Shown here piece by piece: positions 4,020 to 27,481 of a DNA stretch of 27,481 bases. This stretch comes from a virus. The stretch covers positions 1 to 27,481 of the IMG/VR virus record IMGVR_UViG_3300032291_001985; one strand, written 5' to 3'. The position numbers were made by a program, and so were the translations under genes. A model generated the notes under the pieces. It had not been told where the DNA came from, searched no databases, and saw nothing but the letters and a program-made list of their open reading frames with translations. Numbering within the stretch: the first letter of the stretch is position 1; the number at the start of each line of letters is the position of its first letter.

Positions 4020-4147
4020 TACAATCCGTCAACCAAAAGGACATCACTATTAAGTGATTTTTTAAGTCCTCCGGTGACGGAATCGCTTTCTATATTTTGA
4101 AATAAAGAAAATAACTTCTTCATTTCTTTGTTGTCAAAGTTGCTCAT
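4019..4147 (-). CDS. N-terminal fragment of the split 5'-3' exonuclease (42 aa)
   Basis: This short ORF starts at ATG 4147 with MSNFDNKEMKKLF and ends LLVDGL, then TAG (4021-4019). The hydrophobic strand plus VDG is the first beta strand of FEN/T4 RNase H nucleases and holds the first metal-binding aspartate (D40 here; T4 RNase H D19). Deleting the five bases TAGTG would give LLVDGL-NTYIRSF, the expected continuous family sequence. The start lies inside the last codons of the upstream homing endonuclease gene, which ends at 4134, so translation may be coupled at both ends. The leader before the strand is longer than in T4 RNase H. The ORF is short, but the motif match and exact junction make it convincing as exonuclease sequence. 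Confidence 0.8.
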   Translation of the reverse strand: MSNFDNKEMKKLFSLFQNIESDSVTGGLKKSLNSDVLLVDGL

Positions 4148-5066
4148 TTAATAGTTTTTTAATGTATATATTTTTGTCTTTACATTGTTCCCAATCGTGT
4201 TGCCATATAACTTTTATTATATACCCATTCGATTCAGCAATCAACATTTTATTTTTATCTTTTTCCCATATTTTAATAACTTCATCGGACGATGTAAAAA
4301 ATCTAGGATCTCTGTGCCAATAAGTACCATTAAATTCTATTAATAAATTTTTTTCTTTTACAAACACATCGTATGGCTTCCCCCCAACAACATATTCATC
4401 TTGAATTGAATATCCTTGTTCTTTTAACAATCTAATTACTTCCTGCTGTCCTTTAGATTTAAAAATTGGTTTGTGAATTCCACTTTTCCACTGATTTTTA
4501 GTAATTAACGATAATTTGTGTTTTGTTTCAGTAGTATGTCTAAAATTAGATCGTTTGGTTTTCTTTGGTTTTCTTAATTTTAACTTATGTTCTTCTGTTA
4601 ATGGCTTTCCAAGTTGAGATTGAGACATTTTTTGTTTAGTATCTTCACTGGGTTTATACCAGTCTCTACTCTTTACTCGTTTTATTTTACTCTCCATTGT
4701 TTGGCACTTTGGTAAACAATGTTTAATCATTAAATCCCTACATCTAGATTTAGCGGACTGATTATTTTTATAATATTTTTTAATACCGACAGACATTTTT
4801 TGTCTTCTTTCTGAAGAAATAAAATAACTATCTTTGTTTCTTTTTTGATGAGCAGCTTTAGACGTTCTAACAGCACTTATTTTTTTCAAATAAGTTTCAC
4901 CATATTTATTATATAAATATTTTTTTATTTTTTCCCCAGTTTTGCTACCAATTTTATTCAGTTTAAATAAAGAAGTAAATCCACATATTGATTCATCTTT
5001 TATAAAGATTTGATATAATCGTTCAGATCGGTCTTCAAAAAAGAGTTTTTCCGCATTGTTATCCAT
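4134..5066 (-). CDS. Homing endonuclease, NUMOD3 plus EDxHD/VSR-like nuclease
   Basis: Free-standing mobile endonuclease of 310 residues. The C-terminal third carries the nuclease core: E209 in KGQQEV, D233 in KPYDVF, E244 in IEFNGTYWH (H251), and H290-D291 near the end. This matches the PD-(D/E)XK-related EDxHD family that includes I-Bth0305I and resembles VSR nucleases. The middle has a NUMOD3 DNA-binding motif (about 138-165, SEDTKQKMSQSQLGKPLTEEH) and flanking lysine-rich repeats. It sits between uvsX and the exonuclease gene and overlaps the exonuclease leader ORF by 14 bases, typical of an intergenic homing invader. Its start codon lies in the loop of a long hairpin, with a TATTTATTA element next to it. 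The target site is unknown; an invasion near the exonuclease start could explain the broken frame there. Confidence 0.88.
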   Translation of the reverse strand: MDNNAEKLFFEDRSERLYQIFIKDESICGFTSLFKLNKIGSKTGEKIKKYLYNKYGETYLKKISAVRTSKAAHQKRNKDSYFISSERRQKMSVGIKKYYKNNQSAKSRCRDLMIKHCLPKCQTMESKIKRVKSRDWYKPSEDTKQKMSQSQLGKPLTEEHKLKLRKPKKTKRSNFRHTTETKHKLSLITKNQWKSGIHKPIFKSKGQQEVIRLLKEQGYSIQDEYVVGGKPYDVFVKEKNLLIEFNGTYWHRDPRFFTSSDEVIKIWEKDKNKMLIAESNGYIIKVIWQHDWEQCKDKNIYIKKLLNEQL

Positions 5067-17513: not shown

Positions 17514-20500
17514 TTAATTGGTTGTTGCTTGACCAAATGAACCAAATTTTGCGTTACTTGTTGCTAATAATTGATTTGCACGTTGACCATCAATATACAC
17601 AGCAATTTGACCAGATGCCATCATAGAAGTCAATTTATCAAGTTTTTCTGCTAAAACTCTATTGGAATTTACAATTGTATTGATCAATAAATCATCGTTT
17701 TTTACACTTGTTTTTGATTCGGCTGTGGTTTTTGATGGAGTTTCATCTGATGCCCCAACAATTCTACCTACAAAATTAAATGTTTTTCCAATTGTTTCAG
17801 ATATAAATGAACCAATTCCTTTCATTTTCTCCCACACTTTTTCAAGCGCATTAATAATAAATGTAAAAGCACCACTGAATGTATCTTTAATAAACGACCC
17901 CACTTCGGATACAGCAGACTTTATTAATTGAAATGCTTTTCTAAATGGATATGTAAGTACTTCAAATAACATATCTACTACAGATTTGATACCATCAACA
18001 ATTGTTAAACCAAGTTCAGATGGAGAAAATCCTAACCATTTTTTAATTCCTTGCCAAGCTGTTTCGAATGCACCAATGATTATAGATGGGATCGCAGCTG
18101 CTAAAAAGAAAAGTCCTTTTAAAATTACCAATCCCAATTCTGCTGTTACTTTAGCCAATGCTACAGGCAATTTAATAAACGCGAATAGAATCATTTCAAC
18201 TGCCAAATTTCCAATATTGAGGAAAATCTTACCCCACTGTATCCCACCCCCTTCACTAAACATTTCTTCTATTTTATCAGGTAAACTTGTTAATGCGTCT
18301 AATAAAAAGTTGGTTAGATCTTTAAATATTGATCCAAAATCTATCTCGGCTAAAAACAATGGTATCTTTTTAAGAAAATCAAAAACCATTTTTAATGGTT
18401 CTATTACCAAAACATTAACTACAGATTTTAATCCAGCTACAACTTTTTGACTCGTAGTACCCGTGGTTTCATTAAATGCTTTAAAAAATGCTATACCAGA
18501 TTGTATTACAGATACAACTAATCCTATAGGCCCCAAAAATTTAGCCACTACTCCAAAAAGTGGGGCAAATTTTGAAAGAGCGCCAACTCCAGTTCCTAGT
18601 TTTCCAAAAATGTTTGTTATAACACTCCCCGTTCCACTTATAAATTTACCAATGCCACTAAATGTGGATCCTATTATTCTTCCAACAGCAGATATTTTGC
18701 TTGTGCCAACTGAAAATAAACTAAATACATTTCCTATTATTTTATAAAATCCACCTACAATCGATGTGGTCGATTTTATTACCGATCCAATTGACATTAT
18801 TGCTTTTTTAGCAATATCAGAATACTGAGCAATAACTTGTAAATTTTTAAACAACAAAAATGTTTTGCCTATTTCTATAGCCAATTTTTTAATTTCTTCT
18901 CGGTTATCTTTTATATACTTTAATAACTCTGTAAATATTGGACCGATTTGTTCCAATATAGGCCCAATAAATTCCATAAATATTGCATTAATTTCATTTT
19001 GTAATTGTTTCACTCTGGTTTGATTTTTTTCTTGAATCAACCCCTTTTCATATTCGGCCTGAGCGGCTTTTTTAGCGGCAATAGGATCATTCTTCATCAT
19101 TTCCGCCATTTGTTTTTTCTTCTCCGCTTCAGCTTTTACCAATGGATCTTTTGATTTTAATGCTTCTTTCAAATTTTCTTCAGCATTTAACATGTCTTGT
19201 AATTCTTTTACAGACTTACCAGCAGCTTTTGCAAATGCTTCTTGTGCAATTGGATTTAACTGATTAAACTTAATTTTCTTAGCTTGGTCCAATATTAATT
19301 TATTTGCTTCAACAACTTTACCTTGGAATGCCAATCTACGAGCTTCATTGAAGTTAATGTTTTTACCAATCAATGCACTAGCTTTTAATTCTGATTGAAT
19401 ACTACTTTCAAAGTCAAGCAAACCCTTTGCAGTTTTTGCCATATTGTCAAGAGTAGTACCCATTTGTCTAGCTTGAGCTGCAGCTCTAACCATTTCATCT
19501 GCATTTTTACCAGCAAACATTCTAGCTTCTTCAGATGCATTTGCGACATCGAGCATTACATCGTCCAACCCAACTCCATAAGCATTTGCAGCAAATTTTG
19601 CCAATCCCAACATATTTTGTTTGGCTATTGCACTTTTTCCAGATACACCGCCTAACGTTTGTAGAAACTTAACACTTGTTTCAGAAGCTACTCCAAATTG
19701 AGCAGACATTATTGAAACATCTTTAACCAATCCTTTTTCCATAGATTGCAAACTTGTAAAAGTTGAACCTATTTGTTTCATTGTTCCGCCAAGTTGTTCA
19801 GCGTTTATACCAAACTCAGCTAACTCAATAGAAGCTTCTCGTATGTTTTTTTCAAAAATTGCACCCTGACTTGGTAATAGTCCAAATTTTTGTCTGACAT
19901 TTGTAGCAGCGGTGTCAATTTGGTTAAATATGTCGAGTATTTTTGAAAACGACTCGCCTATAGTAGATGGCACATTTAAAGATTTAAATACTTTTTCACT
20001 TATAGAAGACAGTTTTTCAAATATTTTTTCAACATTTTTCAATGTAAATTCAAAACTTTTATTTGCAAGATCTATATTTTTTTTAGTTTTTATAATTTCT
20101 GCATTAACCGATTCAAATTGTTGATCAATTAACGACCCCACATTTTTTTGCTTTTCATATACTTTAAGATTGCCATCTAAAGCAATTTTTTGCATTAATA
20201 AGTTGTTTTTAAATGATTCAGCCGCTTGAAGTTGATCTCCGACAATGTTTCCAAGATTAATTTCTTCATCAATTCTATTCATTTGAGCTTGATAAATTTC
20301 TTGCTGTAATTCTAATTTTCTTTTTTCTAAATTAAAAGATGCCTCATCATATACAATCGACGCTTTTTTTTGTTCGCTTATAATAGAAGCAATATCAGAT
20401 TGAAGATTTGTAAGAACATTTAATCGACGTTGGTTTTTTTCTTGTTCACTTAAATTTTTACTTATATCTGCCCAATCTGATTTAAGCTTTTCAGTTATAT

Positions 20501-20567
20501 TACTGGCAGCACCTAAATTTTTAAGTGCATTGGCCAGAGCGGTTGGATCAAATGGTTGTGCTGCCAT
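17514..20567 (-). CDS. Tail tape-measure protein, 1017 aa
   Basis: Sets tail length and threads the tube before DNA release. The N-terminal 550 residues are almost all helical and charged, with long coiled-coil stretches (residues 20-210, 460-560) and alanine-rich helices. Hydrophobic, membrane-like segments follow at about 665-695 (FLGPIGLVVSVIQSGIAFF) and 785-835 (around FAFIKLPVALAKV and LFFLAAAIPSIIIGAF), as in other tape measures. Gly-rich repeats with 'GSVIKSTTSIVGGF' texture lie between. At about 1.5 angstroms per residue a tail near 150 nm is expected. The position directly after the gp26-like chaperone with its frameshift extension is the classic order. No lysozyme or peptidase motif is seen. 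The call rests on length, composition and position. Confidence 0.9.
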   Translation of the reverse strand: MAAQPFDPTALANALKNLGAASNITEKLKSDWADISKNLSEQEKNQRRLNVLTNLQSDIASIISEQKKASIVYDEASFNLEKRKLELQQEIYQAQMNRIDEEINLGNIVGDQLQAAESFKNNLLMQKIALDGNLKVYEKQKNVGSLIDQQFESVNAEIIKTKKNIDLANKSFEFTLKNVEKIFEKLSSISEKVFKSLNVPSTIGESFSKILDIFNQIDTAATNVRQKFGLLPSQGAIFEKNIREASIELAEFGINAEQLGGTMKQIGSTFTSLQSMEKGLVKDVSIMSAQFGVASETSVKFLQTLGGVSGKSAIAKQNMLGLAKFAANAYGVGLDDVMLDVANASEEARMFAGKNADEMVRAAAQARQMGTTLDNMAKTAKGLLDFESSIQSELKASALIGKNINFNEARRLAFQGKVVEANKLILDQAKKIKFNQLNPIAQEAFAKAAGKSVKELQDMLNAEENLKEALKSKDPLVKAEAEKKKQMAEMMKNDPIAAKKAAQAEYEKGLIQEKNQTRVKQLQNEINAIFMEFIGPILEQIGPIFTELLKYIKDNREEIKKLAIEIGKTFLLFKNLQVIAQYSDIAKKAIMSIGSVIKSTTSIVGGFYKIIGNVFSLFSVGTSKISAVGRIIGSTFSGIGKFISGTGSVITNIFGKLGTGVGALSKFAPLFGVVAKFLGPIGLVVSVIQSGIAFFKAFNETTGTTSQKVVAGLKSVVNVLVIEPLKMVFDFLKKIPLFLAEIDFGSIFKDLTNFLLDALTSLPDKIEEMFSEGGGIQWGKIFLNIGNLAVEMILFAFIKLPVALAKVTAELGLVILKGLFFLAAAIPSIIIGAFETAWQGIKKWLGFSPSELGLTIVDGIKSVVDMLFEVLTYPFRKAFQLIKSAVSEVGSFIKDTFSGAFTFIINALEKVWEKMKGIGSFISETIGKTFNFVGRIVGASDETPSKTTAESKTSVKNDDLLINTIVNSNRVLAEKLDKLTSMMASGQIAVYIDGQRANQLLATSNAKFGSFGQATTN

Positions 20568-20602: not shown

Positions 20603-20830
20603 CTAAAAAGGCTTATCTACTTTACCCGACTTTTTAGCAGGTTCTTTGTAACTATCACTTTCTTTGTTCTTTATATTTGCTAATTGAGCATAGTAAAAAT
20701 TACGCAAAAATACGGGTAAATTATACGCAATTTGTACATTTACCGCTCCTTGCGAGAAATAACTCAATTCAAATATTTGACCGTGAACTTGTAACTTATA
20801 TTCAGGATTCAGGCCAAAAAAACTGTACCG
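20603..20830 (-). CDS. gp51-like tail-chaperone extension read by +1 frameshift (70 codons after the slip)
   Basis: This frame is open from just after a TGA at 20831-20833 to TAG at 20603-20605 and has no ATG or GTG. After a one-base skip at the T7 run it encodes 70 residues, beginning GLNPEYKLQVHGQIFELSYF and ending in a lysine-rich tail. The part AYNLPVFLRNFYYAQLANIKNKE has the 'LP...R.(F/W)(F/Y)...l...K.kE' ending of T4 gp51-like proteins and of the T part of lambda GT-type chaperones. With the upstream gene it would give a 340-residue fusion. It fills an otherwise unexplained 234-bp gap between the gp26-like and tape-measure genes. TTG codons could in principle start a separate protein, but none has a ribosome-binding signal. 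Confidence 0.8.
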   Translation of the reverse strand, partial: RYSFFGLNPEYKLQVHGQIFELSYFSQGAVNVQIAYNLPVFLRNFYYAQLANIKNKESDSYKEPAKKSGKVDKPF

Positions 20831-21626
20831 TCATCGGTACATCCATCCTTTCCACCTCACCACAGTGTTCACATACAAAGTCAAAACCCATATCCAATTC
20901 AGGCGCAATTGTTTTAATATAAGCTCTTAGTGCCATACTGTCTTTTGACAACAACTCATTGTCAACAAATTTATTGATAGATGCAATATCTGGTTTTCCA
21001 TCTATACTTACAATCAGCTTTTTAAGTCTGGTAGTTACTTCTGTGCTGGCTTGTTTTTTTATCTTGGTCATCGCTTTAATATCACGATCAATGCTTTCTT
21101 GATCACCAGATGTAACAAGTTTAAATGTTATTCTACGTTTACAATATGGAAACTCAAATTCAAATTCATTACTACCCTTCTGAAACTTATTGAAGTCCAC
21201 TTCTTTTTCATTTAATGTACTTAAATCAATATATGTTTTGTTTTCGGTATTACATTTTTTGCACTCAATTTTTACAGGTCCGTATTTGTCACCATATGCC
21301 AAACGTCTAGCAGCAACAAACAGTGCATTTTTGTCTACCATCAACAAATCTTGTGTTCTTACGCCGGGTGTAACAATTAAAGATTCAAGCAATTTATCCA
21401 ATACAGTACCGTTTTTGATGAAGTTTTCATTGGTTAAAATGTCTTCTTCTCTAGCGGTCATCATCTTTAATTCCACACTACCTTTGCTTAGTGGACTAGA
21501 CTCATCATAGAAATATCCTTTAGATGGCAATTCTATTGTTTCCGCAGGATAACTTGTAGGTGCAGCTATTGTTGATGCAGTTGAATGCTGTTGCTTTAAT
21601 TTTTGAATTATAATTTCGTCACTCAT
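20802..21626 (-). CDS. 26: gp26-like baseplate hub assembly / tail chaperone protein, 274 aa
   Basis: Matches the 'T4 bacteriophage base plate protein' (gp26) family as found in marine T4-like phages: IELPSKGYFYDES, the strongly typical MMTAREEDILTNENFIKNGTVLDKLL, and VDKNALFVAARRLAYGDKY. Two CxxC pairs, C122/C125 (CKKC) and C252/C255 (CEHC), are expected to make one zinc site. Residues 170-230 are helical. The zero-frame protein ends FFWPES, immediately after a T7 run that gives access to the gp51-like frame. Order on the strand is gp26-like, extension, tape measure, so a role as chaperone of the tape measure is more likely than a structural one. No TATTTATWA element is seen at its start, unlike its neighbours. 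Confidence 0.88.
   Translation of the reverse strand: MSDEIIIQKLKQQHSTASTIAAPTSYPAETIELPSKGYFYDESSPLSKGSVELKMMTAREEDILTNENFIKNGTVLDKLLESLIVTPGVRTQDLLMVDKNALFVAARRLAYGDKYGPVKIECKKCNTENKTYIDLSTLNEKEVDFNKFQKGSNEFEFEFPYCKRRITFKLVTSGDQESIDRDIKAMTKIKKQASTEVTTRLKKLIVSIDGKPDIASINKFVDNELLSKDSMALRAYIKTIAPELDMGFDFVCEHCGEVERMDVPMTVQFFWPES
20816..20822 (-). other. T7 slippery run, candidate +1 frameshift site
   Basis: Zero frame reads CAG TTT TTT TGG. Moving forward one base after the second TTT keeps the phenylalanine tRNA paired with TTT and continues GGC CTG into the gp51-like frame. A -1 move would stop within three codons, so only +1 (or -2) is productive. Polymerase slippage on the same run is an alternative route. 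Confidence 0.65.
20824..20841 (-). promoter_or_regulatory. 7-bp hairpin abutting the slippery run
   Basis: TGTACCG and CGGTACA pair around a 4-base loop, one base before the T7 on the minus strand. It could influence frameshifting from the 5' side. It also has the form of an intrinsic terminator, although inside a coding region. Confidence 0.55.
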
Positions 21627-21675: not shown

Positions 21676-22581
21676 TTAAATTGATTTCAACTGATGTTGA
21701 GCAGCATCACGAGCAGCTTTTCTACTGTCTACTCCGTCTTTTTTGTTTTTTACATTTAGTTCAGCTCTGTCTTTTTCTTCGGGGGTAGTTGCATCTTTTA
21801 AATCGTCATTTGCTTTTGTAAGTTCTTGTTGTGCCGCATCAAGTTCAGCATTACGAAGAACCAATCCAGCCATATTCCACTTTTGTCTTGCAGATTTTAT
21901 TTTTGCATCATCTTCTTTCATTATACCCACAATCAATTTCTTTAATAACTTCTTTTGCTTTTCAGTTAATTTACCGGCGTTGTTACCCAATCTATTGTTT
22001 AGTATATTATGAACATTTGTATTGTAATTACCAAACAAATCAGTAATAAAAGCCTTTTGTTGCTCTGGGGTTAATGTAGCATATTGAGATCTCAATTGAC
22101 TTGCACTTCTAGCCGGAAACCCTAGTACTGTAAAATCTGTAGTTGGTACTGTTATCAAATATCCGTGTTTTATGGCTGGGTCTAATTTGGATTGATTTTT
22201 TGGCAACGGTTGCAAATAGGAAGGAGACCCATCTTTTTTTACAAAGTTTTTGAATCGTGGATCTTCAGCCATATCCTTTTCACTAACCGCAAAAATAATA
22301 CTATCACGTTCTATATTGATTGGTATTTGATTAGCTACACTTTGCAAGTTGTAATTGTTTTTGACGTTTAGTATTTTGTTTGCGGGTATACCTGTGGTAA
22401 TCATCATTTGCTTTTTTTCATCAAAAGTAAATGGTGATTTTGGCAATTCTGTGACACCTGTGGTTGTTATATATACATCATTACCACCAAATTTAGTGGT
22501 TAGGTAGTTGTATACACTTTTGTGACCGTTATGCCATGGGTGAAATCTTCCAGGGAATATTACGAATATTTTCTTGCTCAT
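21676..22581 (-). CDS. HIGH-superfamily nucleotidyltransferase (cytidylyl/adenylyltransferase-like) with coiled-coil tail
   Basis: The Rossmann-type domain opens KKIFVIFPGRFHPWHNGH, with the (H/T)xGH nucleotide-binding motif at H17-N18-G19-H20. A later ARSASQLRSQY matches the second signature, ISxTxxR. This is the fold of NadM/NadD, glycerol-phosphate cytidylyltransferase and phosphopantetheine adenylyltransferase. About 190 residues form the enzyme. The rest is helical and Ala/Lys/Asp-rich (AELDAAQQELTKANDDLKDA), probably coiled coil. I start at ATG 22581 (MSKK); ATG 22587 is also possible. The frame to 22611 would run into a terminator hairpin. It sits between the tail tube and gp26-like genes, odd for a metabolic enzyme. 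The substrate cannot be read from sequence; NMN/NAD-type or lipid/sugar headgroup chemistry are both open. Confidence 0.82.
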   Translation of the reverse strand: MSKKIFVIFPGRFHPWHNGHKSVYNYLTTKFGGNDVYITTTGVTELPKSPFTFDEKKQMMITTGIPANKILNVKNNYNLQSVANQIPINIERDSIIFAVSEKDMAEDPRFKNFVKKDGSPSYLQPLPKNQSKLDPAIKHGYLITVPTTDFTVLGFPARSASQLRSQYATLTPEQQKAFITDLFGNYNTNVHNILNNRLGNNAGKLTEKQKKLLKKLIVGIMKEDDAKIKSARQKWNMAGLVLRNAELDAAQQELTKANDDLKDATTPEEKDRAELNVKNKKDGVDSRKAARDAAQHQLKSI

Positions 22582-22591
22582 TTGCATATAG

Positions 22592-22600
22592 TAATAAATA
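22592..22600 (-). promoter_or_regulatory. TATTTATTA start-proximal element (nucleotidyltransferase)
   Basis: TATTTATTA on the minus strand, 4 bases before ATG 22587 and 10 before ATG 22581. It follows directly on a terminator hairpin, which makes a promoter role plausible. Confidence 0.48.
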
Positions 22601-22603
22601 GAA

Positions 22604-22627
22604 AACCCCACAAATAAATGTGGGGTT
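22604..22627 (-). terminator. Bidirectional-looking terminator after the tail tube gene
   Basis: AACCCCACA (22604-22612) and TGTGGGGTT (22619-22627) form a 9-bp perfect stem with a 6-base AATAAA loop. T-rich sequence follows in both directions. It lies 20 bp after the tube stop, as expected for a highly expressed virion gene. Confidence 0.78.
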
Positions 22628-22646
22628 CTTTTTGATACAATAAATA

Positions 22647-23138
22647 TTAATATTGGAGAATTGCGTAATCGTATGCTACAGATAAACTGATCATCTGAGC
22701 AGCACCGTCATCGCTCCAATCCATTTCTTGGAAATCAGCGCTTACGATAAATGAACCTACCAACTTCCATTCTTCTACTTTGTCACCTACTGGACCCAAG
22801 ACGTTAATTGTTAGATCCTTCTTATAAAAGTCTTGATAACCGTCACGACCAGTAACTGATTCGTGGTGCAAACGTACCCATTCCATTACTGCTTGAGCAC
22901 CGGATGGTACAATTGGATCATAAAGTTCCATACTGATTTCATCCCATACACTTTTACCCTTGTAGTAGGTTTTTACGTTAATATGGTCAAGTTCCTTCTT
23001 GGCTTGTGTTAGTTTAGGACGATTGACCTTTTTGATGATGAATGATGGAATACCATCAACATAAAGAATAAAACGATTCTTTACTTTTGGTTCGAATGCC
23101 GTAGCGAATATTTCACTTGGATTTAGTAGTTCTGCCAT
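22647..23138 (-). CDS. 19: Tail tube protein, T4 gp19-like, 163 aa
   Basis: The major inner-tube subunit of the contractile tail; hexamers stack on the baseplate. Length equals T4 gp19 (163). Typical family segments are FEPKVKNRFILYVDGIPSFIIKKVNRPKL near the start, HINVKTYYKGKSVWDEISMELYDP in the middle, AVMEWVRLHHESVTGRDGYQD, and the end strand GAAQMISLSVAYDYA. No missing parts. An AGAAAGG motif 10 bases before the ATG is one of the few Shine-Dalgarno-like sequences here, in keeping with high expression, and a strong terminator follows. The sheath gene is not in the window; a plus-strand homing endonuclease lies immediately upstream. Confidence 0.93.
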   Translation of the reverse strand: MAELLNPSEIFATAFEPKVKNRFILYVDGIPSFIIKKVNRPKLTQAKKELDHINVKTYYKGKSVWDEISMELYDPIVPSGAQAVMEWVRLHHESVTGRDGYQDFYKKDLTINVLGPVGDKVEEWKLVGSFIVSADFQEMDWSDDGAAQMISLSVAYDYAILQY

Positions 23139-23241: not shown

Positions 23242-24747
23242 ATGAGCAGACCTAAAAATAATCCGGATTTTATTGAAAAGGTATGTGGAACTTGTAATAT
23301 AAAGTATAAAATTTCCTTTTACAAGCGAAATACATCAATATACTGTAGCAAACAGTGTTCAAATGCAAACGTTAAAGTTTTAAATAAAATACGTGAATCA
23401 CAGAAAAAAACGTATTCGCAAAAATATAATGGAATGCATCCAATGCAAACCGAAGAAACAAAGAAAAATTTTAAAAATGCTATTTTGGATAAATACGGAG
23501 TTGAATCGTATAGTAAATTAGTTGTATATAAACAACGTGTTAAAAACACTAAATTTAAAAAATATGGAGATGAAAATTATAACAATATTGAAAAAATAAA
23601 ATCCACTTGTCTTACAAAATACGGAGTTGATAATGCTTTAAAAGATGTTACCATAAGGAAAAATATTGCGGATAAATCTAAAATAGAACGTTTTGGTTTT
23701 ATTAAAAATTACTGTGAGGTTAGAAATATATCTCCTTTATTTTCTGAATCTGAGTACAATGGTTATTTATATAAAAATAAATATAAATTTTTGTGTACAA
23801 AGTGTAACAAGATATTTGAAACGGACGTTTATAAATTAAATCATATATTTTGTAGTTACTGTAATCCATTAGACAAAGATACGCTTGAAAATGAAATATA
23901 TCACTTTATCAAATCTATTGTGCAAGATGATATTATTGTAAAGAGAAAAGATAGAACTGTACTTAACGGTAAAGAGTTAGATATTTATGTACCGTCTAAA
24001 AATATAGCTATTGAACTAAATGGATTGTATTGGCACAGTGAAAACGGTAACGGTATTAAAAAACATTATCATTTAAATAAAAGTCGCAGTTGTAATTCAA
24101 AAGGCATACGACTAGTACACATATTTGAAAATGAATGGATTCATAAAAAAGAAATTGTTAAATCTGTACTTTGTTATTTGTTTAAAACTAATATTAACAA
24201 AATTTACGCGCGTGAATGCGATGTTCGGTTGGTTTGCGAAGATGAAAAAAACACGTTTTTAGAACACAATCACTTACAAGGAAAAGATAAATCTTCTATA
24301 AAATACGGATTGTATTATAAGAATGAATTGGTCTCTTTGATGACATTTGTTAAGTCTAGATTTGATAAAAAAATACAATACGAAATGTATCGCTATTGCA
24401 ATAAACTAAACACATCTGTTATAGGATCCGCATCAAAATTATTTAAAAGATTTATCCACGATCATACACCTAAGAGCATTATATCTTATAATGACAAAAG
24501 GTATTTTGATGGCATAGTATACCAAAATTTAGGTTTCAATTTTATCGAAAATACTACACCTAACTATTGGTATATAAGTCCAGATTATAAAATATTATTT
24601 AATCGAATGTCATTTCAAAAACATAAATTAAATAAGATATTGAATAAGTTTGAGTCAAATTTAACAGAATGGAAAAATATGCAGTTAAATGGTTATGATC
24701 GTATCTGGGATTGTGGAAACGGAAAATGGGTATGGACTTCCGTGTAA
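23242..24747 (+). CDS. Hef-like homing endonuclease, 501 aa, opposite strand
   Basis: Large mobile endonuclease of the phage Hef-like group. N-terminal zinc-finger-like cysteines are C15/C18 (CGTC) and C35/C39. Three KYG(V/D)xN/S-type repeats follow at about 84, 107 and 126 (DKYGVESY, KKYGDENY, TKYGVDNA), typical DNA-contact repeats. A second cysteine set is C185/C188/C204/C207. The nuclease core is GKELDIYVP (D247), IAIELNGLYWHSE (E258, H265), and IRLVHIFENEW. A long C-terminal domain (about 310-501) ends WDCGNGKWVW. It is the only plus-strand gene, inserted between the tail tube gene and the HAD-NTase gene and ending 5 bp from the latter convergently. The YWH nuclease motif is shared with the endonuclease at 4134-5066, but the rest is unrelated. 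Intact and probably active. Confidence 0.88.
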   Translation: MSRPKNNPDFIEKVCGTCNIKYKISFYKRNTSIYCSKQCSNANVKVLNKIRESQKKTYSQKYNGMHPMQTEETKKNFKNAILDKYGVESYSKLVVYKQRVKNTKFKKYGDENYNNIEKIKSTCLTKYGVDNALKDVTIRKNIADKSKIERFGFIKNYCEVRNISPLFSESEYNGYLYKNKYKFLCTKCNKIFETDVYKLNHIFCSYCNPLDKDTLENEIYHFIKSIVQDDIIVKRKDRTVLNGKELDIYVPSKNIAIELNGLYWHSENGNGIKKHYHLNKSRSCNSKGIRLVHIFENEWIHKKEIVKSVLCYLFKTNINKIYARECDVRLVCEDEKNTFLEHNHLQGKDKSSIKYGLYYKNELVSLMTFVKSRFDKKIQYEMYRYCNKLNTSVIGSASKLFKRFIHDHTPKSIISYNDKRYFDGIVYQNLGFNFIENTTPNYWYISPDYKILFNRMSFQKHKLNKILNKFESNLTEWKNMQLNGYDRIWDCGNGKWVWTSV

Positions 24748-26076: not shown

Positions 26077-27481
26077 TTAAGCTCTAACAAATTCAGCTCT
26101 TACAGCTACACAATCATATAATGTATTATTATAATATTCACAAGCCAATCTACAACTACCTGCTACTTGCGCATTGGCTTGTCTAGGTACAAACAATCCA
26201 ACGTTATATAAGCTACTTGCATTTGTAAAGTCTAATGTACAAGTACCAGCAACAGTGTAATACGCATCCACAAATGCGGTGGTAAAATTAACAGTATAAT
26301 CACCAACGCCATTGTCTGTGATTGATGTAACGTTATTTGATCCATTAATAGTAACTGTGCCTGTACCATTGAAATAAACATAAGCTCTAACAGGTGACCC
26401 ACCAACAGATGAACCACTACTGCCACTCGTTCCAGTGACACCGCTAGATCCAGGACTACCATTTGCGCCACTGGTGCCGCTGGTGCCTGGACTGCCATTT
26501 GCGCCACTGGTACCACTAGTACCGCTTACTCCATTGGTACCACTACTACCAGTACTACCTGGACTACCATTTGCGCCACTGGTACCACTTGTTCCATTAA
26601 CGCCACCAGTACGATAATTAACATTTCCAGAAGCATCGATGGTCAAGAAATTTGCATCGGATGCAGATGATACTGTTCTGATTCTTAGAGTACCATTAAT
26701 ATCAAGTTTTTGTGTAGGACTTGTTGTGCCTATACCAACGTTACCGTCATTTTTAATTCTTACTCTTTCGGCGTTATCCAAATCAAATCCACTAGTATGC
26801 AATGCTAATCCAACCATTCTGTTATAACCAGCACTATTTTCTTCGCTTACAGCATATACACACGCAGATTTTCCTTTGATGTTTATGGAATCAATAGAAC
26901 CATTCATCTTGATGCCCCACTTAGCACCACCGTTAGATACCGAAGCCGGACTTGCTCCAAATGGAGCGGTCAATACTACGAAGTCATTAACTTTATTAGC
27001 ATCCATATAGGTACTGGTAGTAGCAGTACCAAGTTGAATTCTCGATCCTGTATTGTTTGTAGCAATCACAGTTAAGGTAGCAGTTGGACTACTTGTGCCT
27101 ATACCTACGTTACCATCAGCCGCAATACGCATTTTTTCATTATTATTAGTTAAAAATCTCATATAACCATTGTTATATTGATTAATATCTAAATTTGATC
27201 CGCCACCATAATAAATGCCACCATCATTTGTGATGGTACTGGTTGTTTTTAAAGTCCCCGCAACTTCCAATTTATAGGTAGGATTTGTTGTTCCTATACC
27301 TAAATTGCCAGAACTGTTAATAATAGCATAATTAGTTCCTCCGCCTCTAGCTCTAAAATAGTGTGTAGTATTGTCGTAGTAATTTGCTGGATCACTATTA
27401 TTGCCTAAATACAATGCTGGATTGCCAGCTGGCTCATATATTCTATTATAATATCCTGAAAACCAAGCAATTGGTGAACCA
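26077..27481 (-). CDS. Tail fibre / receptor-binding protein with collagen-like segment, 5' end missing
   Basis: The frame is open to the right edge; no proper start is inside, as the first in-frame TTG (27414) is preceded by 22 more open codons. The visible part, about 467 residues, has three copies of a 'G(N/D)(L/V)GIGTxxP(T)xxL' motif (GNLGIGTTNPTYKLEVAG, GNVGIGTSSPTATL, GNVGIGTTSPTQKLDING) typical of phage fibre stalk proteins. A Gly-X-Y collagen-like segment follows, then a C-terminal domain (YVYFNGTGTVTINGS ... ITDNGVGDYTVNFTTAF ... EFVRA) common at the tip of many phage fibres. There is no S74 chaperone domain at the end. It likely contacts the host surface. It is the first of the minus-strand genes in the window; the next gene is 160 bp away. 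Confidence 0.88.
   Translation of the reverse strand, partial: GSPIAWFSGYYNRIYEPAGNPALYLGNNSDPANYYDNTTHYFRARGGGTNYAIINSSGNLGIGTTNPTYKLEVAGTLKTTSTITNDGGIYYGGGSNLDINQYNNGYMRFLTNNNEKMRIAADGNVGIGTSSPTATLTVIATNNTGSRIQLGTATTSTYMDANKVNDFVVLTAPFGASPASVSNGGAKWGIKMNGSIDSINIKGKSACVYAVSEENSAGYNRMVGLALHTSGFDLDNAERVRIKNDGNVGIGTTSPTQKLDINGTLRIRTVSSASDANFLTIDASGNVNYRTGGVNGTSGTSGANGSPGSTGSSGTNGVSGTSGTSGANGSPGTSGTSGANGSPGSSGVTGTSGSSGSSVGGSPVRAYVYFNGTGTVTINGSNNVTSITDNGVGDYTVNFTTAFVDAYYTVAGTCTLDFTNASSLYNVGLFVPRQANAQVAGSCRLACEYYNNTLYDCVAVRAEFVRA
26400..26605 (-). repeat. Gly-X-Y (collagen-like) coding repeat in the tail fibre
   Basis: Codes for about 65 residues of GTS, GAN, GSP and GSS triplets. The unit GTSGTSGANGSP occurs three times, and the plus-strand core CCATTTGCGCCACTGGT appears near 26460, 26497 and 26570. 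The repeats invite recombination and length change. Confidence 0.85.

Follow-up and report, generated by a model that had tools for sequence, protein, structure and literature searches.

A gp26-like gene of a bacterial virus (IMG/VR record IMGVR_UViG_3300032291_001985) ends at a run of seven T just ahead of the tape measure gene, and an open frame without ATG or GTG lies one base out of phase with it. Does this locus produce a short and a frameshifted long tail assembly chaperone and, if so, in which direction does the ribosome shift, and what favours that direction? We analysed these questions in the window, that is, the whole stretch of 27,481 nucleotides under study, and in the corresponding loci of its relatives.

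The chaperone locus and its reading frames

Profile matches and direct reading give the order tail tube, cytidylyltransferase-like gene, gp26-like gene, +1 extension and tape measure on the minus strand of the window.

22647..23138, minus strand: tail tube protein, upstream neighbour (phrog_4542 tail tube, E 2.8e-25)
21676-22611, minus strand: cytidylyltransferase-like gene, between the tail tube and chaperone genes (phrog_395, E 2.1e-7)
20802..21626, minus strand: gp26-like short tail assembly chaperone (TAC-N), zero frame, 274 codons (PF12322, E 9.3e-12; phrog_150, E 1e-13)
20824..20841, minus strand: 5' hairpin TGTACCG-ATGA-CGGTACA, 7 pairs, loop of 4 (fold −9.3 kcal/mol; terminator scan)
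20816..20822, minus strand: slippery run T7 (read from the sequence; core kept as YTT-T in 84/84 representatives)
20822-20820, 20819-20817 and 20816-20814, minus strand: slip codons, E-site TTT, P-site TTT and A-site TGG, respectively
20603..20815, minus strand: +1-frame extension (TAC-C), 70 codons at 20815..20606 and stop TAG at 20605-20603 (read from the sequence)
17514..20567, minus strand: tape measure protein, downstream neighbour (phrog_1535 tail length tape measure, E 6.6e-13)

The gp26-like gene matches PF12322 with 45.5 bits (cut-off 24.5) and ends ATG ACG GTA CAG TTT TTT TGG CCT GAA TCC TGA. When the T at 20816 is skipped, reading continues as GGC CTG AAT CCT GAA TAT AAG... for 70 codons, and the first-pass annotation had both the frame end and the extension peptide right. 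As it also stated, the extension contains no ATG or GTG; none occurs in this frame from the upstream stop to the end, which leaves TTG, present at offsets 16 and 36, as the sole candidate start codon. The extension was further said to end exactly before the tape measure gene; the two are adjacent but do not abut, with a gap of 35 nt between the extension stop and the tape-measure ATG (20567). The chaperone gene thus occupies the position between tail tube and tape measure, with the cytidylyltransferase-like gene intervening on the tube side, unlike in phages immuto and Mel-JY01, where the tube and chaperone genes are adjacent. In such AT-rich DNA a 70-codon open frame is, by itself, weak evidence, and it is conservation that settles the question.

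Several other features of the window were recorded. A strong inverted repeat with a terminator-like score on both strands lies at 22602-22629, between the tail tube and cytidylyltransferase genes. An ORF of 501 aa (23242-24747, plus strand), on the strand opposite to the tail tube gene and immediately upstream of that gene, matches PF24308 (DUF7487, E 4.9e-15) and, judged by eye, looks like a selfish endonuclease-type insertion. A 310-aa ORF beside a RecA-like gene (4134-5066, minus strand) matches the nuclease fold PF18741 weakly, with 31.7 bits at a cut-off of 38.2, and a repetitive protein cut by the window end (26077-27480, minus strand) includes a collagen-type stretch (PF01391, E 1.3e-8). 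A search of the PDB for relatives of TAC-N returned none at E up to 1.

Conservation of the offset and of the extension

The frame offset is conserved among relatives to a striking degree. It is +1 in 46/46 usable loci of a close set of 48 (L048 and L049 were dropped because of contig ends, and the extension of L024 is cut after 22 codons) and in 80/80 loci of a wider set, in which L065 and L066 are contigs already present in the close set. In 6 of these 80 loci the open −1 frame is at least as long as the +1 frame (L073, L090, L091, L097 and L133, with a tie in L106); in the first five, the +1 frame aligns with other extensions, and L106, at a contig end, is too short for this comparison. A later set of 142 loci, seven of which run off and some of whose contigs repeat the wider set, has the site together with an open +1 frame in 132/135 complete loci, the other 3 lacking this combination. 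Among 17 loci from MAGs, of which one runs off and two (L446 and L447) share a contig, the offset is kept in 15/16 complete loci, the exception being a 23% relative (L450). Finally, a further set with 18 usable loci (L204 and L205 were dropped because of contig ends) comprises 16 with the +1 arrangement and two, L197 and L201, with a separate ATG-started gene. The zero-frame stop within a few codons of the site is kept in nearly all relatives.

The extension itself is conserved from its very beginning. With L128 and extensions of 45 codons or fewer (e.g. L024, L086 and L106) left out, the alignment of 92 unique extensions starts at their first codon and includes a motif around VYNMPI-LR-FY. 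In 141 close pairs of extensions, the differences at codon positions 1, 2 and 3 of the +1 frame number 627, 343 and 1953, respectively. These comparisons show that the predicted extension is under selection as a protein. The offset, the missing start codon and the fused chaperone with G/GT-like forms, all put forward in the first-pass annotation, are supported.

An ATG-started extension gene in relatives, which that annotation regarded as evidence against fusion, does exist in L197 and L201. There it directly follows the gp26-like stop and adds about 20 N-terminal residues (MENIDNLL.. and MNIDRFLQ..). On the tree, these two loci are sister to Flavobacterium phage immuto, and because both sit inside the +1 clade, the separate gene looks derived; frameshifting seems to have been replaced in this pair. 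In a different lineage, represented by L415-L417, the extension follows TTC TTC TGG CCT and is read in the −1 frame, although a standard −1 site is absent (from about 2231 onwards). This arrangement is identical in three contigs and is therefore probably not an assembly error.

The slip site and the conserved hairpin behind it

We clustered 146 loci with a recognised site at 85% identity, which yielded 84 representatives. The site is TTTTTTTGG in 63 of these, TTTTTTTAC in 8, TTTCTTTGG in 7, TTCTTTTGG in 3, TTTTTTTAT in 2 and CTTTTTTGG in 1. The slip codon is TTT in 77 and CTT in 7 representatives and is followed by T in 84/84, such that the codon can re-pair one base forward (YTT-T) throughout. 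The first-pass annotation had proposed to check conservation of the T-run; the core is invariant, and the longest run in some members is 3 or 4. Where the slip codon encodes Phe it is never TTC (0/77), as opposed to 19% TTC (164/846) among the upstream Phe codons. The A-site codon is UGG, with UAC or UAU in some relatives, and the zero-frame codon that follows it is CCT in 82/84 representatives, which is largely explained by the Leu encoded in the +1 frame. A T directly before the run is strongly avoided, with 2/65 observed versus 36.4 expected and 2/40 in a hold-out set.

A Shine-Dalgarno stimulator was considered and rejected: only 21/84 representatives have an SD-like core in the 15 nt preceding the slip codon, and the last 15 nt before the slip site of the window contain no SD-like sequence. 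Structure downstream of the site is detectable, with a z of −1.04 ± 0.18 over 60 nt against synonymous versions (pooled codon usage) and dips of about −1 to −1.5 in the positional profile around 0 to +36 and +66 to +96. This signal is smaller than that of the 5' hairpin.

In the window, the 3' end of the hairpin lies one base before the T-run. Compared with other positions of the same gene, the 24 nt 5' of the run fold with a mean z of −3.84 ± 0.35 across the 84 representatives, the strongest signal coming from windows with start positions between −27 and −21; 55/84 representatives fall in the lowest 5% of their own gene, and 29/84 do not. Against versions with synonymous codons, z is −1.62 ± 0.18 at the site as opposed to −0.22 to +0.04 at eight other offsets. 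The hold-out set behaves similarly (31/40 in the lowest 5%, mean z −2.83 ± 0.27), and the hairpin ranks at ≤0.05 in 11/15 MAG loci, a count in which L446 and L447 are one stretch entered twice and L435 was scored one codon off. Weak hairpins are seen in the cultured main-clade relatives Microcystis phage Mel-JY01 (−1.1 kcal/mol) and immuto (−2.6 kcal/mol). The end of the stem falls 0-4 nt before the run in 53/62 folded representatives.

A single shared stem register is not the rule. Among 19 sequences of the window's subclade, covariation is found in two registers, of which the window's own is the weaker: its covariation score was reached by 6/500 shuffles and its percentage of paired cells, hardly above chance, by 71/500, compared to 0/500 for the covariation score of the second register, all these shuffle tests being inflatable by shared ancestry, to which the synonymous and positional controls are less exposed. 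Because two registers covary, we relied on register-free tests, in which the 3' arms were swapped between sequences; the hairpin was then lost (z −12.5 for the 84 representatives and −6.2 for the 40 hold-out sequences). These results show that the predicted hairpin immediately 5' of the slip site is conserved as a structure.

The hairpin is also associated with the direction of the shift. It is present in 68/109 +1 representatives versus 4/30 −1 representatives (Fisher p 2e-6; the −1 set does not include L184 or L059, the latter having the −1 frame with no standard heptamer), and in 13/25 SP15-like +1 representatives versus the same 4/30 (Fisher p 0.003). Another set of 80 loci contributed 51 to this comparison and 20 to that of the frame offset.

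Taken together, these observations make it very probable, as far as comparative sequence evidence goes, that a programmed +1 ribosomal frameshift on a P-site YUU-U yields short and long tail assembly chaperones. Under this model, most ribosomes would end at the zero-frame stop and release the gp26-like short form, and a fraction, whose P-site peptidyl-tRNA is paired to UUU (in some relatives to CUU), would slip +1 onto UUU and read 70 more codons, producing a long form that would be the counterpart of lambda GT and T4 gp51. When the E, P and A sites are occupied by UUU, YUU and UGG, respectively, the stem would take the position of the Shine-Dalgarno helix of prfB; refolding of the hairpin behind the E site would favour forward over backward slippage, and slow decoding of the A-site codon might help. 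The hairpin would in this way probably drive the ribosome in the +1 direction. Both forms would presumably act on the tape measure protein. According to the accessible part of the study by Huang, Cho and Chang (2018, PMC6321510), hairpins placed upstream at the E site promote +1 shifting and dampen −1 shifting by 70S ribosomes in vitro, an effect also seen at a hungry sense codon and weaker than that of an SD helix. In an excerpt on PRFect (PMC10885494), CUU is cited as the most slippery codon at the prfB site, followed by UUU and CCC.

Two alternatives would place the event in transcription. RNA polymerase, aided by the nascent hairpin, could drop one U in T7, so that normal translation gives the long form; the window does have seven T after a hairpin, and transcriptional slippage that depends on a stem-loop and has features resembling a terminator is known (Penno et al. 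2015, as listed among the references of PMC5009743). Alternatively, hairpin and T-run could form an intrinsic terminator or attenuator that lowers tape-measure expression, with the frameshift a separate matter; the geometry is indeed terminator-like, including the position of the stem end noted above, and a terminator scan finds the same stem. Interrupted T-runs that keep both the offset and the hairpin argue against transcriptional slippage and against simple termination alike. The +1 offset persists where the longest T-run is 3 or 4 (TTTCTTTGG, TTCTTTTGG and the SP15-like TTCTTTC), and among 22 loci with runs of 4 or fewer, 11 have the hairpin in the lowest 5% (mean z −2.40). Furthermore, the terminator scan gives 4 such sites in 7 kb compared to 3.1 in shuffles, and the hairpin tracks the frame direction although −1 members also have a T6 run. 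We accordingly regard a terminator as unlikely and transcriptional slippage as slightly less likely than that.

Other readings accept the frame and differ in how it is reached. A −2 ribosomal shift, left open by the first-pass annotation beside +1, would arrive at the same offset with one more Phe and is feasible on an unbroken T7. It is disfavoured by the TTT CTT TGG and TTC TTT TGG types, which make up 10/84 representatives: a −2 shift would move the P-site tRNA from CUU to UUC in the former and from UUU to UCU in the latter, whereas +1 leads to UUU in both; moreover, CUU-U is the prfB +1 site (PMC8710568, in part). Expression of the extension as a separate gene, from a non-ATG start or by translational coupling, gains some plausibility from the ATG-started version in L197 and L201 and from the two TTG codons of the window. 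However, extension offsets 0-20 are free of ATG and GTG in 66/84 representatives, 31/84 have no ATG, GTG or TTG from the upstream stop to offset 20, the conserved block begins at the first extension codon, and an independent start would not require an invariant slip core. Homopolymers being generally error-prone, one continuous gene broken by a sequencing or assembly error might also be envisaged, but run and offset are alike in many separate contigs, in cultured phages (L050 and L051) and in MAGs, and the nearby zero-frame stop is retained as well. A separate gene appears very improbable, a −2 shift even more so, and an error next to negligible. A +1 ribosomal frameshift is the reading we retain.

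SPP1 has a +1 tail gene. In the available passages of a 2016 review (PMC5009743), +1 is considered very likely for the tail chaperone of the haloarchaeal myovirus HSTV-2 and is also described for structural genes of Listeria phages PSA, A118 and A500; the PSA-type sites involve a Pro CCC before a stop, or a pseudoknot, and no 5' hairpin is described in those passages. Bacterial prfB (RF2) shares the CUU-U slip with the TTTCTTTGG members and has its stimulator immediately 5' of the E-site codon (PMC5009743 and PMC8710568, both in part); the window locus differs in its sense A-site codon and in that its 5' element is a hairpin. The engineered hairpins of PMC6321510 are juxtaposed to the E site like those of the phages, although H1, as described in the part of that paper at hand, is a designed GC-rich stem of 12 pairs on an RF2 site in vitro and the phage stems are shorter, with 7 pairs in the window. 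Several MAG matches are labelled Flavobacteriales, and Bacteroidia ribosomes do not recognise SD sequences, according to an excerpt of PMC9976891. That SD-blind host ribosomes need a hairpin instead is nevertheless unproven: prfB frameshifting with an SD-like sequence is common in Bacteroidia (523/726 genomes, PMC8710568, in part), and the hairpin of immuto is weak.

Shift direction and kinship across the family

Beyond the window's closest relatives, +1 is also found in SP15-like and other phages, including Listeria LIS04, Streptococcus GXN1 and 29/35 usable loci of a 38-locus set (L149, L154 and L174, cut short, were dropped), with a site that is mostly TTY TTT CGN; L175 belongs with the main +1 type. 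A slip on YUU does not fit a few SP15-like members (TTA TTT AAT CCC A and similar), in which the hairpin is absent. Specifically, L166, L167, L169, L171 and L172 are +1 loci with TTA/CTA TTY AAT CCC A, no YUU site and no hairpin, and the shift may occur on CCC-A. A −1 shift at U-UUU-UUN, mostly UUC, is indicated in cyanophages, Rhizobium IC12 and RL38J1, Agrobacterium Atu_ph07, Xanthomonas XacN1, Stenotrophomonas RAS14, Pseudomonas Paride, LR756511-like phages and L177-L182; Cygsa01 is −1 without a standard heptamer. T4-type phages have separate genes 26 and 51 (T4 and the layout of six others).

On a tree of 97 rows, with the main clade thinned at 60% identity, the window falls in a +1 clade of 41 rows (39 +1 and 2 ATG-type; SH-aLRT 98), and a branch with support 100 separates this clade from T4 and the cyanophages. 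With the separate-gene rows left out, at least two changes between +1 and −1 are needed, a number that is uncertain because the tree was built by a quick method without bootstrap and many of its inner branches are weak. We lean, by a modest degree, towards the view that an orthologous Phe-Phe site has switched between −1 and +1, its direction being set by whether a 5' hairpin abuts the E site and whether a U precedes the run.

The first-pass annotation saw in the locus a gp26-like protein joined to a gp51-like extension. Kinship with the gp26/gp51 family is supported, but gp51 does not correspond to the extension alone: in T4, gp26 as well as gp51 is a full-length member of PF12322/phrog_150, and gp51 has an extra C-terminus, so that the short form is comparable to gp26 and the long form to gp51. 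Directly aligned by hhalign, the +1 extension matches the gp51 C-terminus weakly, albeit in the same register (probability 2.8, E 0.017). The −1 extension profile reaches a probability of 95.4 (E 1.9e-8) against the +1 extension profile and of 96.3 (E 1.7e-9) against the C-terminus of gp51. The predicted link between the extension and the gp51 C-terminus, and with it the proposed resemblance to the gp51 end, therefore runs through the −1 phages. Against Pfam and PHROGs profiles the 70 residues alone gave no match, and adding them to the gp26-like part did not lengthen the phrog_150 match.

Vladimirov, Gautam and Davidson (Virology 566:9-15, 2022) reportedly dealt with T4-like tail chaperones, made in some cases by frameshift and in T4 from separate genes. 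The novelty claimed in the first-pass annotation, that the locus links the T4 and lambda systems, cannot be upheld, frameshifted chaperones of T4-like phages being already in print, as citing passages in PMC12846349, PMC10274946 and PMC10885494 also indicate. These chaperones are alike in belonging to the PF12322/phrog_150 family and in having short and long forms, but their polyT signal is called −1 in the passage of PMC12846349, whereas the window's clade has +1 with a YUU-U core and a 5' hairpin. G-T type frameshifting is widely conserved except in T4, according to the 2016 review (PMC5009743, in part). Lambda G/GT likewise lies before the tape measure gene and has short and frameshift-extended forms (same source); lambda and the widespread −1 chaperones differ from the window in direction and slip site, with no sequence kinship shown. 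A literature search of titles and abstract starts found neither a +1 shift in gp26/gp51-type chaperones, one of which the 2022 paper might hold, nor a natural phage case of an upstream hairpin. On the basis of this search, three points appear to be new: a clade that shifts +1, the apparent change of direction at an orthologous site, and the conservation of the 5' hairpin.

The practical consequence is that a predicted long tail chaperone is restored in genomes where the extension is annotated as hypothetical (Mel-JY01), is partly covered by a short hypothetical gene (immuto) or is unannotated (LIS04). More generally, orthologous phage genes would use opposite recoding directions at one site. 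They form a natural series, from +1 with and without a hairpin, through −1 mostly without, to a separate ATG gene and the separate full-length genes of T4, and with which the effect of an mRNA duplex behind the ribosome on frame direction could be tested directly. If our model is correct, these phages would be a natural family in which +1 shifting is stimulated by a hairpin located behind the ribosome.
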